From positions 186,001 through 250,000 of the forward strand of contig JAHBVX010000003.1 in assembly GCA_019637295.1 (NCBI GenBank): a DNA stretch of 64,000 nucleotides, given 5' to 3'. Position numbers and translations under genes: made by a program. The notes under the pieces are model-generated. The model saw only the letters and a list, made by a program, of their open reading frames with translations, made no database searches and was not told where the DNA came from. This DNA is from Polyangiaceae bacterium (GTDB lineage Bacteria; Myxococcota_A; Polyangia; Polyangiales; Polyangiaceae). Within the stretch, counting starts at the first letter, position 1, and each line of letters opens with the position of its first letter. Positions 1,940-61,919 of this stretch are shown here, in pieces.

Positions 1940-2965
1940 ATGTCCAACGTCGTACCCGCCCCCAAGCTCACGAGGAAAGACTTCGAGTCCGATCAGGACG
2001 TGCGCTGGTGCCCAGGCTGTGGGGACTACTCCATCCTCGCCAACGTCCAGCGCGTGATGCCAGAGCTCGGCGTCCCTCGCGAGAAGCTCGTGTTCGTCAG
2101 CGGCATCGGCTGCTCCAGCCGTTTTCCCTACTACATGAACACCTACGGGTTTCACACCATCCATGGCCGGGCGCCGGCGGTCGCCATGGGCATCAAGGCG
2201 GCAAATCCGGACCTCACCGTGTGGCTCGTCACCGGTGACGGCGACGGCCTGAGCATCGGCGGCAACCACCTGATGCACTGCTTGCGCCGCAACGTCGACC
2301 TGAACATCCTGCTGTTCAACAACCGAATCTACGGCCTTACCAAGGGCCAGTACTCGCCGACCAGCGAGTTCGGCAAGATAACCAAGAGCTCCCCGACGGG
2401 TTCGGTCGACTTCCCGGTGGACCCCAGCACGTTCGCCATCGGCTGCTCGGCGAGCTTCGTAGCGCGCTCGATTGACGTCGACGCGACCCACCTGACCGAG
2501 ATGCTCAGGCGTACCGCAGCGCACAAGGGCGCGAGCTTTCTCGAGATCTACCAGAACTGCAACGTGTTCAACGACGGCGCGTTCGACGCCTTCCGCGAGA
2601 AGGTCCACCGCGACGACCGCACGATCCGCGTCCAGCACGGCAAGCCGCTGCTGTTCGGCAAGGACAACACGAGAGGTCTGCGCATCGACTCTCGCACGCT
2701 CTCGCTGGAGGCCGTCACCCTCGGCGAGAACGGCGTCACCGAGCAAGAGATCTTGCTGCACGACGAGACCAACCCGACGCTGGCCTACATGCTCGCCCGC
2801 ATGCCGTTCCCGGATTTCCCGGTGGCCCTTGGCGTGCTGTACGCAGTAGACAAGCCGACCTACGACGGCACCCTCACGGCTCAGCGCGACGCGAGCCTGA
2901 AGAAGAACGGCCAGGGCGACCTGCACGCGCTGCTCCACTCCGGCAACACCTGGCAGGTGTCCTGA
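1940..2965 (+). CDS. korB: 2-oxoacid:ferredoxin oxidoreductase beta subunit (KorB-like)
   Basis: The 341-residue beta subunit carries the thiamine diphosphate site. The N-terminal WCPGCGDYSIL motif is typical of KorB. The TPP/Mg motif is GDGDGLSIGGNH followed by the conserved asparagines in LLFNNRIYGLTKGQYSPTS. It starts 3 bp after the korA stop with only AACC between, so the two form an operon. It partners KorA to oxidise a 2-oxoacid to acyl-CoA with reduction of ferredoxin. Beside acyl-CoA genes it could supply reduced ferredoxin or run the 2-oxoglutarate step of the TCA cycle. Downstream lies the first copy of the structured repeat, whose terminal hairpin sits about 50 bp after the stop and may end this transcript. 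Confidence 0.93.
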   Translation: MSNVVPAPKLTRKDFESDQDVRWCPGCGDYSILANVQRVMPELGVPREKLVFVSGIGCSSRFPYYMNTYGFHTIHGRAPAVAMGIKAANPDLTVWLVTGDGDGLSIGGNHLMHCLRRNVDLNILLFNNRIYGLTKGQYSPTSEFGKITKSSPTGSVDFPVDPSTFAIGCSASFVARSIDVDATHLTEMLRRTAAHKGASFLEIYQNCNVFNDGAFDAFREKVHRDDRTIRVQHGKPLLFGKDNTRGLRIDSRTLSLEAVTLGENGVTEQEILLHDETNPTLAYMLARMPFPDFPVALGVLYAVDKPTYDGTLTAQRDASLKKNGQGDLHALLHSGNTWQVS

Positions 2966-3012
2966 GTTCGATCGCCGTCGGCTGACCGACAGCGCTCGGC
3001 TGCCGGGGCCTC

Positions 3013-3159
3013 GAGAGCTGTCGAAGTTTCGACAGCTCTTTCATTCTGTCGCCGGGGAGGCACGCGCCTCCCCGCGCCAACGAAGTGAATTCGTTGGGGC
3101 CCCACCCCACCCGGGCCGGCTTCGCGGCATGACCTGGGTCAATTCTTGACAGACCTTCA
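3013..3159 (-). repeat. Structured intergenic repeat, copy 1 (reverse orientation)
   Basis: About 146 bp, reading on the minus strand from the TGA stop of the downstream-lying regulator gene (3157-3159). It matches copies at 28382-28530 and 61016-61163 over nearly its full length with a few small changes. On the minus strand the order is TGAAGGTCTGTCAAGAATTG, a short GTCAA/TTGAC hairpin, a weakened GCCG hairpin, a perfect CCAACGAA/TTCGTTGG hairpin, the invariant GGGGAGGC/GCCTCCCC hairpin, and a long terminal AGAGCTGTCGA/TCGACAGCTCT hairpin (3014-3039). Read on the plus strand, the terminal hairpin is followed by TTTCATTCTG, so it could act as a terminator for korB. No coding potential is apparent. 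Confidence 0.9.
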
Positions 3160-4689
3160 GTGCCGGCCTCGCCGCCCCTCGCTCTCGAGCAAGGGCGAGA
3201 AGAAGTTGTCCTTCTTGACGTATTCGTCCGGGTTGAACGCGAACTTGTAGGACGGCGCGGCCCGCTGGTTGCAGTCGGTCCGCTCGCAAAAGCGACAGGT
3301 GACCCCGACCGGGACGCCGATCCGCTCTGCGCGATCCTTGTCCCACGCGGGCTGGTCCTCGGCGTACGCCAAGTGGTGAGCGTCCTCCGCTCGGGTCCCG
3401 AGCCCGATGGAGTACACCGTGCCCTTGACCAACGAGCCGCGAACCGGATGGCTCGATATGCGCGCGAAGCAGAAGAACGCCGTGGAGTCGGGCATCACGC
3501 TGAACTGCTTCGTGATCTGGCTTGGCGTGAGGAACGTGGTGTGCACGACCCACTTCGGACACGACCCGAGCGCGCTCGGGACGACCAACCCGGTGGCAGC
3601 GTAGCGCTTGGAGATGTTGCCAGCGACGTCGACGCGTAGAAAGTGCATGGGCACACCTCTGCGCTTCGGATCCGAGAGGTTGGTGAGGCGATGAGCCGCC
3701 GCTTCGTAGCTCATCTCATACACCCTCGAGAGCCGCTCGACGTCGTAGCGGGAGGTCTGTGCATCGCGGAAGAAGCTCTCGTAAGGCATCAGCAGCGCGC
3801 CCGCGAAATAGTTGGCGAGGTGGACCTTGATCAGGCGGGGGGCCTCCACGTGACGACCGCGATACTGCCCCAGGATGTCGGACAGCAGCCCGCGCTCCTC
3901 CAGCAGACGCAGGCCCACGATGTGCGCCAGATCGAACTTGCGACGCCCCTCCGAGAGCGTGTCGGCCAGGCCCAAGACACCGGCTGCCGGATCGTAGCGA
4001 CGGATCACACTGCCCGTGCGCGCGACCGCTAGTGGCTCGATGCGCACGCCGAGCGCTGCCAGCGCGCGCTCGAGCTCGACGCTGGTGACCCGCGAGCCGA
4101 GTCCGTTATCGACGCGTACCGACAGGGCGGCGTCCTCGAGCACCGCAAAGTAGTTCTGGCGGCTCTGAACGAAGTCGGCCACCTCGTCCAGGGGCGAGTA
4201 GTCGAAGCGCAGCGTCGCGTCGCCGAGCTCCTCGGGCGCGCCGGCCCGCGCCTTGCGGCCCGCTTCCTCGCGAGACAGGTGCTGAAGCAGGGTGTCGAGC
4301 TGACCACGGGCGTTCTTGTACAGATTGAACAGCGCCGCGATGGTGCTCGCCGCCTGAGGCTCCGCCGAGAGAGCGGACAACGCGTCCCGATCGAGATCCA
4401 GGGAGCGCAATAGCGGTTCGTCGAGCAGCTGAGCGAGACTGTGCTCCACCGGCTCGTCACCGAGCCGACGCATGAACGGCTCAGGCTCCTCGTCCAGCAA
4501 CTCCAGCGCCTTCCACAGCAGCGGGAGCTGGACCGTGCGCCGCCCCTTCTCAATCAAGCTGAGATACGCCGGGGAGATGGCGAGACGCCGGGCGAAGTCG
4601 GACTGGGTGAGCCCACGCTCGAGGCGGAGCTCGCGCAGCCGGGCTCCGACGCGGCTGTTCAAATCCGGGGCTGGGCTCGACTCTGGCAT
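3157..4689 (-). CDS. XRE-family acyl-metabolism regulator, RamB/PrpR/ScfR type
   Basis: The 510-residue protein has an N-terminal XRE helix-turn-helix (residues ~12-66, LTQSDFARRLAISPAYLSLIE). The middle resembles the ImmA/IrrE-like region of this family, including the PYESFFRDAQTSRYDVERLS stretch, and the C-terminal half is the short-chain fatty acyl regulator domain (MHFLRVDVAGNISKRYAATG onward). Cysteines C377, C465, C468 and C473 (TCRFCERTDCNQRAAP) match in kind the cluster-ligating cysteines reported for mycobacterial PrpR, so an Fe-S site is plausible. Known relatives (RamB, PrpR) control acetate, glyoxylate and propionate metabolism and can respond to acyl-CoA. It is divergent from a 3-hydroxyacyl-CoA dehydrogenase and close to ethylmalonyl-CoA pathway genes, which suggests it regulates them. 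Its TGA stop is the first codon of repeat copy 1. Confidence 0.9.
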   Translation of the reverse strand: MPESSPAPDLNSRVGARLRELRLERGLTQSDFARRLAISPAYLSLIEKGRRTVQLPLLWKALELLDEEPEPFMRRLGDEPVEHSLAQLLDEPLLRSLDLDRDALSALSAEPQAASTIAALFNLYKNARGQLDTLLQHLSREEAGRKARAGAPEELGDATLRFDYSPLDEVADFVQSRQNYFAVLEDAALSVRVDNGLGSRVTSVELERALAALGVRIEPLAVARTGSVIRRYDPAAGVLGLADTLSEGRRKFDLAHIVGLRLLEERGLLSDILGQYRGRHVEAPRLIKVHLANYFAGALLMPYESFFRDAQTSRYDVERLSRVYEMSYEAAAHRLTNLSDPKRRGVPMHFLRVDVAGNISKRYAATGLVVPSALGSCPKWVVHTTFLTPSQITKQFSVMPDSTAFFCFARISSHPVRGSLVKGTVYSIGLGTRAEDAHHLAYAEDQPAWDKDRAERIGVPVGVTCRFCERTDCNQRAAPSYKFAFNPDEYVKKDNFFSPLLESEGRRGRH

Positions 4690-27209: not shown

Positions 27210-27761
27210 ATGGCCGAGCAGCTCAGCGCAGCTCAGCGCAGCAAAATCCGCCGGCTGAGTCAGCCAGTGGAGCTGGCGCCGGATGAAGAGGGCGGCGAGC
27301 TCAACATCATCCCGTTCCTCGACATCATCGTGAACATCCTGATCTTCGTGCTGGCGACGGTCGCGGTGACGTTCACGACCTCCATCGAGACCACGCCTCC
27401 CGCCAGTCGCTCCGGCGGCGTTCGCCAAGTCGAGACCTCGTCGCTCAACCTGACGGTGTTCGTCGTCAACGAGGGCTTCTCCCTAAAGGCGACGGCGGGC
27501 AACATCGCTCCCGGCTGCGATTCACCGGGAGCGGGCATCACCATCCCAAAGACCGGCGGCAAGTACGACTACACGTCTCTGACGACGTGTGCGGCGAAGC
27601 TCAAGAAGGCAAACCCCGACTTCGCCGACGAGACGCAGGTCTACATCAACGCAAACCCGGGGACGGACTACCAGACGATCATCTCCACGATCGACGCCCT
27701 GCGCTCCACTCCCCAGGGTGATGCACTGTTCACGGACGTGAACTTCAGGGTGTCCCTATGA
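27210..27761 (+). CDS. ExbD/TolR-family biopolymer transport protein
   Basis: The 183-residue protein has the ExbD helix ELNIIPFLDIIVNILIFVLATVAV (~30-53) with the channel Asp, then a periplasmic domain containing a Cys pair (GCDSPG and TTCAAKLKK) that could form a disulfide. The first codons contain a 10-bp tandem repeat (CAGCTCAGCG twice, about 27218-27238). Its stop overlaps the next gene's ATG by 4 bp. Confidence 0.9.
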   Translation: MAEQLSAAQRSKIRRLSQPVELAPDEEGGELNIIPFLDIIVNILIFVLATVAVTFTTSIETTPPASRSGGVRQVETSSLNLTVFVVNEGFSLKATAGNIAPGCDSPGAGITIPKTGGKYDYTSLTTCAAKLKKANPDFADETQVYINANPGTDYQTIISTIDALRSTPQGDALFTDVNFRVSL

Positions 27762-28384
27762 GTCAAGCCGTACCCCCCGGTGGAGGCGGCCCCGGCCAGC
27801 CCGGCGCCCGTCACGGCGCACCCGTCGTCAAGTACAAGGCTGAGCTGCGTCGCTCCATCCGTCGCAATCGCGTGGAGCCCGAGATCAACTTCCTGAACAT
27901 CGTCGCGATGCTCGACATCATGACGATCATCTTGGTGTTCCTGCTCAAGAGCCTGGGGGAGTCGAGCACGAGCATCCCGCAGAGCGACGACCTGCAATTG
28001 CCGCTGTCAGTACTGCGCACCGCACCCTCCGACGAGGGCGTCGTGGTCACCGTGTCGAAGTCCCAAATCCTGGTGGGCGAGGACAAAGTGCTCACCCTCC
28101 CCAATCGCGAGAGCATGACTCAGACTGGCGTCGGCGCGCGCAACAAGCGCAGCGGGCCCAACGACCTCTACATCGTTCCGCTCGGTAACTCTCTGCAGGC
28201 GGCGCGCAAGACGGACAAGCTCGTGCGGCAGGCCAAGGGCATGGATGCTGGCAGCTCCGAGGCCATCATCATCGCGGACCAGACCACGCCTTACCGGCTC
28301 CTGATCGAGGTCTTGTTCACCCTTGGTCAGAACGAGTTCGGCAAGTATCACCTCATGGTGATGCAGGGCAGCGGCTCGGGCTGA
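27758..28384 (+). CDS. ExbD/TolR-family biopolymer transport protein
   Basis: The 208-residue protein starts in an ATGA overlap with the preceding exbD. A Pro/Gly-rich N-terminus leads to EINFLNIVAMLDIMTIILVF (~43-62); the Asp in AMLDIM aligns with the ExbD channel Asp. The periplasmic part ends in LIEVLFTLGQNEFGKYHLMVM, the fold end common to ExbD/TolR. The TGA stop (28382-28384) is the first codon of repeat copy 2, whose terminal hairpin may end the cassette's transcript. Confidence 0.88.
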   Translation: MSQAVPPGGGGPGQPGARHGAPVVKYKAELRRSIRRNRVEPEINFLNIVAMLDIMTIILVFLLKSLGESSTSIPQSDDLQLPLSVLRTAPSDEGVVVTVSKSQILVGEDKVLTLPNRESMTQTGVGARNKRSGPNDLYIVPLGNSLQAARKTDKLVRQAKGMDAGSSEAIIIADQTTPYRLLIEVLFTLGQNEFGKYHLMVMQGSGSG

Positions 28385-28530
28385 AGGGCTGTTCAAGAAT
28401 TGACCCAGTTCGCGCCGGCGGAGCCGGCCCGCGTGGGGTGGGGCCCCGACGAATTCACTTCGGCGGGGCGGGGAGGCGCGTGCCTCCCCGGTGAAAGAAG
28501 GAAAGAGCCGTCGAGTATTCGACAGCTCTT
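28382..28530 (+). repeat. Structured intergenic repeat, copy 2
   Basis: A 149-bp copy of the repeat also seen at 61016-61163 and, reversed, at 3013-3159. It starts at the TGA of the exbD gene. Hairpins in order: TCAA/TTGA, GCCGGC-GGA-GCCGGC, a GGGG/CCCC stem, CCGACGAA/TTCGGCGG with one mismatch, GGGGAGGC-GCGT-GCCTCCCC, and a terminal AAGAGCCGTCGA/TCGACAGCTCTT (28503-28530) with loop GTAT. The one change in the terminal stem is a C-A mismatch on this strand but a G-U pair on the other. Confidence 0.9.
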
Positions 28531-28765
28531 GAAGCGCCCCCCCACGGGGTAAGTCTGATTTTTCCGTTGGCGAGCCGAGCGGGTCCGTGGTAGCTGTCGC
28601 TCGCTCGCGCTCCTGACGGGGGAGCGTCCCGGCAGCAGCGGACCGCCTCAGGCGTCCCCGGCAGTCTCGGAGGCGAACCCACCGGCAGAGGAGCCGACGT
28701 CCTCGACGGAGAAGAGCGTTTTTTCGAACCGCGCGACAAATTTCGCCGCGCAAGCTGAGTCGGTA
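28531..28765. other. Intergenic region before the pyrophosphatase-like gene
   Basis: No gene or recognisable element was found in these 235 bp, apart from a small CCCC/GGGG hairpin followed by TAAGTCTGATTTTT (28536-28562) that could be a weak terminator for the exbD operon and a T6 run near 28720. A promoter for the next gene was not identified. Confidence 0.4.
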
Positions 28766-59687: not shown

Positions 59688-61018
59688 CGGACACACCGCT
59701 CGCAGCCGAGTCGACCGCGGCGCCGCTCCCATCGGCCCCCACGGTGCTGGTCGAGTTCAGCGACGCCGTGCCGCTCGCGACCGTCAGCGTCGCGCTGCGC
59801 TCTGGCGCCACGGAGGATCCCGACGGTCTGGAGGGCCTCACGCGCCTCTCCGGCCGACTGGCCCGTCGCACCGCTGGCGGCAGGGCTCCACGCGAGATCG
59901 ACGCGGCCATCGACGCGCTCGGCGGCGCGCTCGGGGTGGACACCTCGCACAGCACCTCAGCGCTGCACGGCACGGTGATCTCACGAAACCTGGACTCCTT
60001 CATCGACACGGTCGTCGACGTTCTGGGGCGACCGAGTCTGGACGAGGCCGAGCTCGCTCGGCTGGTGCGCGAGACCGAGGCCGCGCGCGTCGAGGCCCTG
60101 GACAACGATCGAGGCGTGGCCCGTCACTGGTTTCGGCGGCGCATGTTCGCCGAGCATCCCTACGGGCGCTCGGTGGTCGGTACTTCCCGCTCCCTGGCCC
60201 AGATGACCCGCACCCACGTGCAGCACCATCTGGCTCGGACCTGGGTGCGGGGAAACCTGCTCTTGGCCTGCTCTGGGGACATCAGCGAAGACAAGGCTCG
60301 AGAGATCGGCGAGCGCATCGCCCAAGCGGTGCCGCTCGGGCCGGCCACGGAAGCCCGTGTCCCCGAGCCGGTGGGTCCAGTGGGTCGGACTCTGCTGTTC
60401 GTCGACAAGCCCGAGCGAACGCAGACCCAGATCCTCATCGGCTGCCTGGGCACTCACCCCCAGGACGACGACCACATGGCTCTGTACGTCGCCAACACGG
60501 TCTTCGGCGGGACCTTCACCGCGCGCCTGACTCGCGAGGTGCGGAGCAAGCGCGGCTGGTCCTACGGCGCGTACTCCAGCTTGCCCATCGACAAGCAACG
60601 ACGCGCTTTCTCGATGTGGACCTTCCCCAAGGCGAGCGACGCGGCTGCTTGCCTCAGCCTCGAGCTGAAGCTGCTGGAGGAGCTAGTGGAGCGTGGAGTC
60701 ACCGCCAAGGAGCTCGCCTGGGTGAAGCGCTTCTTGGTGCGTAGCCATGCCTTCGCCATAGACACCGCGAGCAAGCGGGTGGGGCTGGCGCTCGACTCGG
60801 TGCTGTACGACCTCCCGCCGCGGTACTACGACTCCTACATCGAGCGAGTGAACGCGGTGACGCTGGAGCAAGCGAACGGGGCCTTGCGCCGCCGCCTCAC
60901 TCCCGACCACCTGCTCATCACCGTGCTCGGCACGGAGCGAGACATCGGCGGCGCGGTTCGCGAGGCCATCCCGCACCTAGCGACGGCCGAGAGCGTCCCC
61001 TTCGATCGGGAGGACTGA
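59684..61018 (+). CDS. M16 peptidase-like, non-catalytic subunit
   Basis: The 444-residue product starts at GTG 59684 (GTGA overlap with the upstream stop). It has the M16 fold (LEGLTRLSGRLARRTAGG, LDSFIDTVVDVLGRPSLDEAELARL, RTQTQILIGCLGT, NTVFGGTFTARLTREVRSKRGWSYGAYSS), but HxxEH is replaced by LTRLSGRL, so no zinc site. The Arg/Tyr pair in KRGWSYGAYS is retained, as in the substrate-binding subunit of M16B heterodimers. Its stop TGA (61016-61018) is the first codon of repeat copy 3. Confidence 0.92.
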   Translation: MTDTPLAAESTAAPLPSAPTVLVEFSDAVPLATVSVALRSGATEDPDGLEGLTRLSGRLARRTAGGRAPREIDAAIDALGGALGVDTSHSTSALHGTVISRNLDSFIDTVVDVLGRPSLDEAELARLVRETEAARVEALDNDRGVARHWFRRRMFAEHPYGRSVVGTSRSLAQMTRTHVQHHLARTWVRGNLLLACSGDISEDKAREIGERIAQAVPLGPATEARVPEPVGPVGRTLLFVDKPERTQTQILIGCLGTHPQDDDHMALYVANTVFGGTFTARLTREVRSKRGWSYGAYSSLPIDKQRRAFSMWTFPKASDAAACLSLELKLLEELVERGVTAKELAWVKRFLVRSHAFAIDTASKRVGLALDSVLYDLPPRYYDSYIERVNAVTLEQANGALRRRLTPDHLLITVLGTERDIGGAVREAIPHLATAESVPFDRED

Positions 61019-61163
61019 AGGGCTGTCAGGAATTGACCCAGTTCGCGCCGGCGGAGCCGGCCCGCGTGGGGCTCCGCCCCGACGAACTCACTTCGGCGGG
61101 GCGGGGAGGCGCGTGCCTCCCCGGTGAAAGAATGAAAGAGCTGTCGATTATTCGACAGCTCTT
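61016..61163 (+). repeat. Structured intergenic repeat, copy 3
   Basis: A 148-bp copy matching 28382-28530 closely and 3013-3159 (reversed). It starts at the TGA of the M16 gene. The terminal hairpin is AAGAGCTGTCGA-TTAT-TCGACAGCTCTT (61136-61163), perfect 12 bp. The left end AAGGGCTGTC and right end GACAGCTCTT form imperfect terminal inverted repeats (9 of 10). In the minus direction, the hairpin precedes TTTCATTCTTTC, a plausible terminator for the outer-membrane protein gene to the right. Confidence 0.9.
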
Positions 61164-61175
61164 GCGGCGGCGGAC

Positions 61176-61826
61176 TCAGAACCAGCCACCGATACCGACG
61201 TTCACCAGCGCGATGGTCCGGTAGCGTCGGTCTCGGTCGTCTTGGTCGTCGCCCGTGAAATCGATGTCCAGGGTGGGGCCGAACAAGATGCCGAAGTGCG
61301 GCACCGGCGCGAGGATGAACATCGCCTCGGCGGTGAACGCCATGCCGGAGTCGTCGCCGCCGGGATCGTCGTCCGTGGAGTGATAGGTGAAGCCGCCGCG
61401 AGGCCAGAACCCGATCACGGGGGTGAACATGATCGCGTAGCCGACTCGCGGTGCGAAGATGAACGCCTCGTTGTCCTGGTCGTTGTTGCCACTCTCGACG
61501 TTCGAGGAGGCATAGCCCAGGGAGCCGCCGATGCTGAGCGAGTCGATGACGAAGTAGTCGAAGCCGACGCGCGGGACCTCGAACGGGCTGTAGAAGCCTC
61601 GGCCCCCGGTCCAGCCGAGCTGTATGCTCGTGTCGGACACGTTCACCGAGTTCCCGTTCGGCAGCTCCTGACGGACCCGAGAGAAGTGGATCCCGAACAG
61701 ACGCTCGCCGAACAGGGCGGCCACGCCTTGGGCGCCGAACTCGTCGGGCCCGGCGGCCGCCGCGGGAGCGGCGACGAACCCAGAGGTCAGCAGGGTGCAC
61801 AGAGTCAGTACCTTGATTTGCTGCAT
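61176..61826 (-). CDS. Secreted/outer-membrane beta-barrel-like protein
   Basis: The 216-residue product starts at ATG 61826 (MQQIKVLTLC), with AAGGAG 6 bp before it. A signal peptide (TLLTSGFVAAPAAAAG) leads to a mature beta-rich part: FGIHFSRVRQEL, TSIQLGWTGGRGFYSP, VGFDYFVIDSLSIGGSLGYASS, FAPRVGYAIMFTPVIGFWPRGGF, AEAMFILAPVPHFGILFGPTLDIDF, TIALVNVGIGGWF. It ends in the aromatic C-terminus of outer-membrane proteins. An acidic loop (DDDPGGDDSG, DFTGDDQDDRDRR) is notable. A minus-strand promoter candidate is TTGGCC, 16-bp spacer, TACAGT, about 20-40 bp upstream. Confidence 0.82.
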   Translation of the reverse strand: MQQIKVLTLCTLLTSGFVAAPAAAAGPDEFGAQGVAALFGERLFGIHFSRVRQELPNGNSVNVSDTSIQLGWTGGRGFYSPFEVPRVGFDYFVIDSLSIGGSLGYASSNVESGNNDQDNEAFIFAPRVGYAIMFTPVIGFWPRGGFTYHSTDDDPGGDDSGMAFTAEAMFILAPVPHFGILFGPTLDIDFTGDDQDDRDRRYRTIALVNVGIGGWF

Positions 61827-61919
61827 GACGATCTCCTTCGAATTCTCACTGTACATCGACTCGAGAGCTGGCCAACGCCGCCGTCGCTGGTGGGAACTGC
61901 GTCATTGCTCGACGACCCT

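Follow-up and report, generated by a model that had tools for sequence, protein, structure and literature searches.

Three repeat copies and their anatomy

The analysed DNA, a stretch of 64,000 nucleotides of a Polyangiaceae bacterium referred to here as the window (window coordinates are contig coordinates minus 186000), is about 91% coding. It carries three copies of a repeat that align with one another over about 150 bp, in agreement with the sequence-only reading, and according to our own gene calls the left edge coincides with the in-frame TGA stop of the upstream gene in all three. Copy 1 (3009-3160, minus strand, CTGA...CGAG) begins on the stop (TGA 3159-3157) of a RamB-like regulator gene (3157-4662, minus strand; PF09856, PF06114 and HTH, that is ScfRs/M78/HTH). 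Copy 2 (28381-28534, plus strand) begins on the stop of exbD (TGA 28382-28384; gene 27758-28384, plus strand) and copy 3 (61015-61167, plus strand) on that of a peptidase M16 gene (TGA 61016-61018; gene 59744-61018, plus strand). The copy extents are model-based, and the identities earlier assigned to the three upstream genes were borne out by Pfam. Beyond copy 1 lies a convergent gene encoding a TPP enzyme C-terminal domain (1940-2965, plus strand), with its stop about 43 nt off the element, and this gene is faced by the right-end hairpin of the copy (3013-3040, plus strand, the copy itself being on the minus strand). The right-end hairpin of copy 3 (61136-61163, minus strand) likewise faces a convergent gene lacking a Pfam match (61176-61856, minus strand), whose stop is about 12 nt off the hairpin edge. 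In copy 2, a pattern scan found the same right-end hairpin (28503-28530, minus strand; 1 match versus 0.3 expected from shuffles), followed by a T-rich tail on the minus strand in a terminator-like arrangement.

In the host genome the element is a dispersed, non-coding repeat of about 150 bp (148-153 bp), a short multi-copy repeat as expected of a MITE. An alignment of copies gave the consensus left end CTGAAGG[G/T]CTGTCAAGAATTGACCCAG and right end AAGAGCTGTCGATTATTCGACAGCTCT[T/C]GAG, with a GC-rich conserved core carrying two strong hairpins between them. The left tip reads CTGA-AGGGCTGTC and the right tip, as reverse complement, CTCA/CTCG-AGAGCTGTC; the ends thus form imperfect terminal inverted repeats (CTGAAGGGCTGTC / CTCAAGAGCTGTC), again as in MITEs, and a hairpin folds at each inverted tip. 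A known RNA family was rejected for the repeat, since Rfam gave no match above the gathering score in the window. Integron attC sites of gene cassettes have the core RYYYAAC...GTTRRRY, and none was seen by eye in the element consensus. A lone, coreless terminal hairpin resembling a single REP unit lies on host contig C19 (L092, about 417689-417725, minus strand), where it is bordered by CTGAAGG and CTCTCGAG.

Stop-codon phase in the host and its relatives

A covariance model built from 32 copies gave 72 matches in the 7.65 Mb host genome, of which 62 were usable copies; nine were dropped because they were shadows of the terminal palindrome on the opposite strand, and a tenth (C19:476502) because it was weak. 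From 9426 first-look candidates 150 were scored in this search, so weak copies may be missed. Frames were counted in 56 of the 62 copies, excluding six lacking TGA at the left tip, and tips in 49, excluding 13 with one unreadable tip each. A coding upstream gene ended in frame on the left-tip TGA in 47/56 copies at the strict codon-score cut (0.1) and in 49/56 at the relaxed one (0.05 with a margin), and in no copy (0/56) was the upstream DNA coding in either other frame, on which ground a chance phase was rejected. The remaining 9/56 had no clear coding upstream at the strict cut; of the seven left at the relaxed rule, L003 begins 5 nt past a TAG stop, and L004, L067 and L080 each have a gene on the opposite strand that starts 31 to 52 nt away. 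Hence the suspicion, raised from three copies, that the phase exceeds chance holds across the host genome, and the consensus search did not find copies at random distances and orientations relative to stop codons.

Model matches were found in 23 of the 98 genomes of the host's family, and the sole other member of the genus (G001) had none. A pattern scan of named genomes gave, among the 80 stretches listed out of at least 97, only the labels Myxococcales, Polyangiaceae and Labilithrix and one 'Proteobacteria' bin. In G055 and G075, divergent copies with TGA tips were in stop frame in 8/8 cases (seven scoring at least 0.2, one 0.07). In G022 the tips are mostly CTAG and all eight coding outer ends were in stop frame, after exclusion by eye of L191 and L199, which are not element ends, and of inner hairpin halves; the left end L198, with 17 codons, was too short and went uncounted. 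The family in G026 has YTAG-type tips (CTAG, TTAG) and has undergone a young burst, with at least 40 matches at 98-100% identity (192 first-look candidates). Of its 51 flanked ends, 14 adjoin a coding frame, with a terminal TAG or TAA in frame in 13 of them, and 37 lack a coding frame at the 0.15 cut used for this genome. The strict total thus comes to 75 of 76 coding ends in stop frame (47 in the host, 13/14 in G026, 8 in G022 and 7 in G055/G075), scored with a codon model trained on 37 window ORFs, from which the codon use of G022, G026, G055 and G075 may differ.

Two G026 copies (L166, L172) have extra hairpin units in tandem beside the right end, resembling a BIME array. Moreover, numerous contigs of the G026 assembly end exactly at an element copy, so that the assembly is broken up by the burst itself.

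Probable insertion target and native stop position

TGA stood at the left tip in 49/49 host copies with two readable tips, non-coding contexts included, so that the triplet could belong to the element. This constancy favours the view that the element brings its own stop, truncating or replacing the original 3' end of the gene, and that copies providing an in-frame stop survive. The orthologues that we compared, as the sequence-only reading had proposed, argue otherwise. For LPD, taking the best of the matches in 87 genomes, the last residue is the same in 30/30 loci including the host and no protein has an additional codon, and the 29 stops outside the host are CTGA (21), CTAG (4), CTAA (2), GTAA (1) and GTAG (1). 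For PreA, 30 loci were fetched and 19 partial matches left out; the 11 loci with full-length matches share the same terminal residue, with CTGA (5), CTAG (3) and CTAA (2) at the ten stops outside the host. The closest relative, G001, has CTGA at the LPD stop and CTAG at the PreA stop, the latter counting against a CTGA target at that gene. The unchanged C-termini of the element-free orthologues imply that the stop position was there before the element and was used by it. In LPD and PreA, the comparison shows the predicted protein to be unaltered by the insertion, with the left-tip TGA still read as the stop of the gene, and at LPD the TGA codon was likely present before the element arrived. 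Truncation was thus not seen in either orthologue set and the two genes lend no support to a brought stop, a view that would also leave unexplained the rarity of harmless insertions beyond the stop codon; we regard it as highly improbable.

LPD also offers a filled and an empty locus: in G001, which has no detected copy, the homologous convergent gene ends at +55, compared with +157 in the host. The short gaps of the two genomes, and with them the exact empty site, are not alignable. Among stop-flush genes of different genomes, PreA is the only clear orthologue pair (host and G026), and the two copies belong to different element families in opposite orientation; the remaining matches are 27-58% identical. 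The PreA 3' ends of the host (L104), G026 (L110) and G001 (L105) are three different sequences at one stop, that of G001 being a piece of roughly 33 nt flanked by two CTAG tetramers.

The flanks of the host copies also show base preferences. C precedes TGA in 44/49 copies versus 73/159 ordinary TGA stops, and G is the fourth right-hand base in 46/49 copies, with G following 54/159 ordinary TGA stops; both preferences would be expected from a C-TGA-G target. The right-hand triplet, however, is TGA in only 32 of the 49 copies, with CGA in 15 and TGC in 2. In G055 and G075, C precedes TGA in only 3/8 copies, which is no preference and speaks against such a target.

In G026 the flanking triplets suggest a target-site duplication. 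The left and right YTA triplets are equal in 30/33 copies (CTA/CTA 23, TTA/TTA 7, TTA/CTA 3; Fisher p=2.8e-5), a count that includes copies at contig ends. The latter match in 25/25 cases, but one of their flanks is just 3-5 nt long, and they may derive from common assembly nodes. Copies with at least 20 nt on both sides match in 5/8 cases and hold all three mismatches. With looser criteria, 18 two-sided copies were obtained, the first three bases being equal in 11, and those with YTA on both sides match in 10/13 (8, 0, 3, 2; about p=0.13, not significant alone). The two-sided copies therefore weaken the claim of a duplication.

The preference for stop codons was then compared with the supply of sites, using gene calls from our own simple caller. 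In 337 kb of host DNA, CTGA occurs 72 times at stops, 183 times between genes and 1586 times within genes. Leaving out divergent gaps, the available CTGA sites number 65 at stops versus 56 in gaps, and the observed copies 49 versus 7 (p=8e-6); for CTGAG, 21 stops and 14 gaps are available against the same 49 to 7 (p=0.004). The available CTGA stops were counted as 64 or 65 to the 56, depending on a single co-directional stop (48 or 49). Since 49 to 7 exceeds the available ratio, a target combined with avoidance of genes explains much, not all, of the stop bias, and the residual excess may reflect a function at gene ends, selection against damage to promoters or operons, or a longer target.

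This excess over a static target model, together with the absence of copies in coding DNA of another frame, would also follow if insertion were coupled to termination of translation or transcription, so that in-frame stops are chosen directly. To our knowledge no mechanism couples insertion to either process, and no coding frame adjoins many of the G026 ends; we give this coupling hardly any credence.

Among the causes put forward in the sequence-only reading, the best fit is insertion at a TGA-containing target: the element-free orthologues keep the C-terminus and often have a CTGA stop, and the sister family adjoins TAG and TAA stops with tips resembling duplicated YTAR targets. We therefore consider it probable that the repeats are a MITE-like mobile family with a stop-containing insertion target, filtered by selection against gene disruption. 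The element would be non-autonomous, with no gene inside, and would insert at a short target containing a stop codon, most likely C-TGA-G in the host lineage, as the tip and flank preferences indicate, and, for the sister family in G026, YTAR-like with TAA or TAG, as suggested by the matching flanking triplets. Insertions that break genes would be lost. Ordinary convergent gaps in host DNA have a median of 13 bp (22 pairs), and in DNA that is about 91% coding stop codons account for many of the harmless sites close to gene ends. The left-tip TGA would go on terminating the gene once the element is in place, leaving the protein unaltered.

Mobilising enzyme and related elements

We infer that the mobilising enzyme is a DDE transposase, although none could be linked to the element directly. 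An autonomous partner with the same ends was not found with the profiles searched (PF01609 in five genomes, and PF01797). DDE_Tnp_1 gave 19 matches in the five genomes, and among these 19 loci, scanned for the tips and core of the three element families of the host, G026 and G022, element sequences occur only at G026:C54. There an IS701 insertion sequence (L258, G026:C54:1-1540; NF033540, E 4e-115) abuts an element copy and shares its CTAG. The inverted repeats of this IS701 are flanked by CTAG on both sides, and CTAG is the commonest flank of the element in G026. The CTAG flank alone matches, the tips of this one IS701 not being shared with the element; from these sequence features the G026 IS701 is a lead as a candidate mobiliser. 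In the host, all listed matches to the terminal hairpin (0-1 mismatch) fall at known copies except C20:462463 and C23:45922, and in C19:414.7-425.0 kb, where the left part is missing from two copies, none of the ORFs listed was recognised as a transposase by reading alone.

A different enzyme is implied if the repeats are REPIN-like and moved by a single-strand Y1 (RAYT) transposase, the constant left tip being its cleavage site. The inverted hairpins at both tips, the directional placement, the lone and tandem hairpin units and the unproved target duplication are consistent with this, as is the single Y1_Tnp (RAYT-like) gene of the host genome (L033, G000:C1:689416-689697). Inspection by eye showed no element up to about 1.5 kb from that gene, and Y1_Tnp had no match at E<=0.001 in G026, despite its many near-identical copies, nor in G022, G055, G075 and G037. 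RAYT mobilisation was disfavoured because several carrier genomes have no Y1_Tnp match, and we regard it as very unlikely.

The repeats resemble several known systems. Bacterial MITEs moved by IS5-group transposases are likewise short, non-coding and multi-copy with inverted tips, and the YTAR-like flanks in G026 recall the YTAR target duplication given for IS5 in an excerpt of PMC10359306; the host-lineage tips (C-TGA / YGAG) and the flush position on stop codons differ. For the IS701 family, 4 or 5 bp direct repeats are given in an excerpt of PMC8024623, citing Siguier 2015. The G026 IS701 shares the CTAG flank with the element, whereas its inverted repeat (CACTACTTTGACA) is unlike the element tips. 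REPIN, REP and BIME sequences with RAYT (PMC3116915, PMC8266576) also have inverted hairpins at both ends and are largely extragenic, whereas the present element is longer, has a conserved core and occurs in several genomes without a Y1 gene. A hairpin directly 3' of the stop is also a feature of the ribosome termination structure (PMC7518266); here, in contrast, the hairpin is part of a dispersed repeat and known from sequence alone. A MITE review (PMC10969869) reports an intergenic preference, and 'stop codon' does not occur in its main text; in an excerpt of PMC2229807 stop codons are mentioned only inside elements. A literature search of partial coverage, over titles and abstract openings, found no description of myxobacterial MITEs that lie flush with stop codons. 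Such a systematic alignment with stop codons appears to be new, and the element seems otherwise to be of an ordinary kind.

Gene surroundings and a possible role at gene ends

Stop-flush copies are enriched next to convergent genes. Within 300 nt on the right, 31/49 copies have a convergent gene versus 16/64 available CTGA stops (p=5e-5), a count that includes at least one doubtful call, copy 2 of the window, next to which the gene caller places a same-strand gene; within 60 nt the figures are 28/49 versus 16/64 (p=8e-4). Among the 34 listed copies with a convergent stop, 30 have it 1-24 nt off the right edge, and as ordinary convergent gaps are tiny, the element looks inserted into a normal gap. 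Furthermore, the right hairpin is followed by a T-rich tail on the minus strand in 36 of the 42 host copies with a readable hairpin and on the plus strand in none (0/42). Any intrinsic terminator would therefore act for the right-hand gene, although the tail is common to the copies by descent, so the 36 are not independent.

These observations bear on the proposal of the sequence-only reading that the repeat is selected as a 3'-end module, according to which copies are retained mainly for their benefit to the gene, by placing a hairpin immediately 3' of the stop codon and by acting as terminator of the convergent neighbour, and mobility supplies the raw material alone. The excess at stops over the target model, the convergent enrichment, the T-tailed hairpin facing the right-hand gene and a predicted folding energy of about -82 kcal/mol (one copy) all agree with it. 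The same convergent enrichment is, however, predicted by avoidance of polar damage in operons; no copy was detected in G001, most flanked G026 ends lack a coding frame, RNAalifold placed compensatory changes in just 3 of 50 predicted pairs, and Rfam gave no match. As the main cause we consider such a module unlikely. What stands of the proposal is a possible second force, suggested by the stop excess, the convergent enrichment and the hairpin, beside the better-fitting insertion target.

A broader reading, which we put forward tentatively and with more doubt than conviction, is that a class of mobile elements with stop-containing targets, spread through a family of Polyangiaceae type, colonises gene ends harmlessly and has partly been adopted there as a module, which places a hairpin by the stop codon of one gene and a terminator before its convergent neighbour. 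As a probable MITE-like family with stop-containing targets, the repeats offer a clear, countable example of a selfish element for which, in a GC-rich genome dense in genes, the stop codon can serve as a safe harbour. The tips of several lineages contain different stops (TGA, TAG, TAA), which allows a test of how the choice of target relates to the safety of the host. For annotation, the systematic coincidence of stop codons and repeat edges calls for caution in these genomes. Moreover, if the terminator-like hairpin works, the element would be a ready-made gene end.
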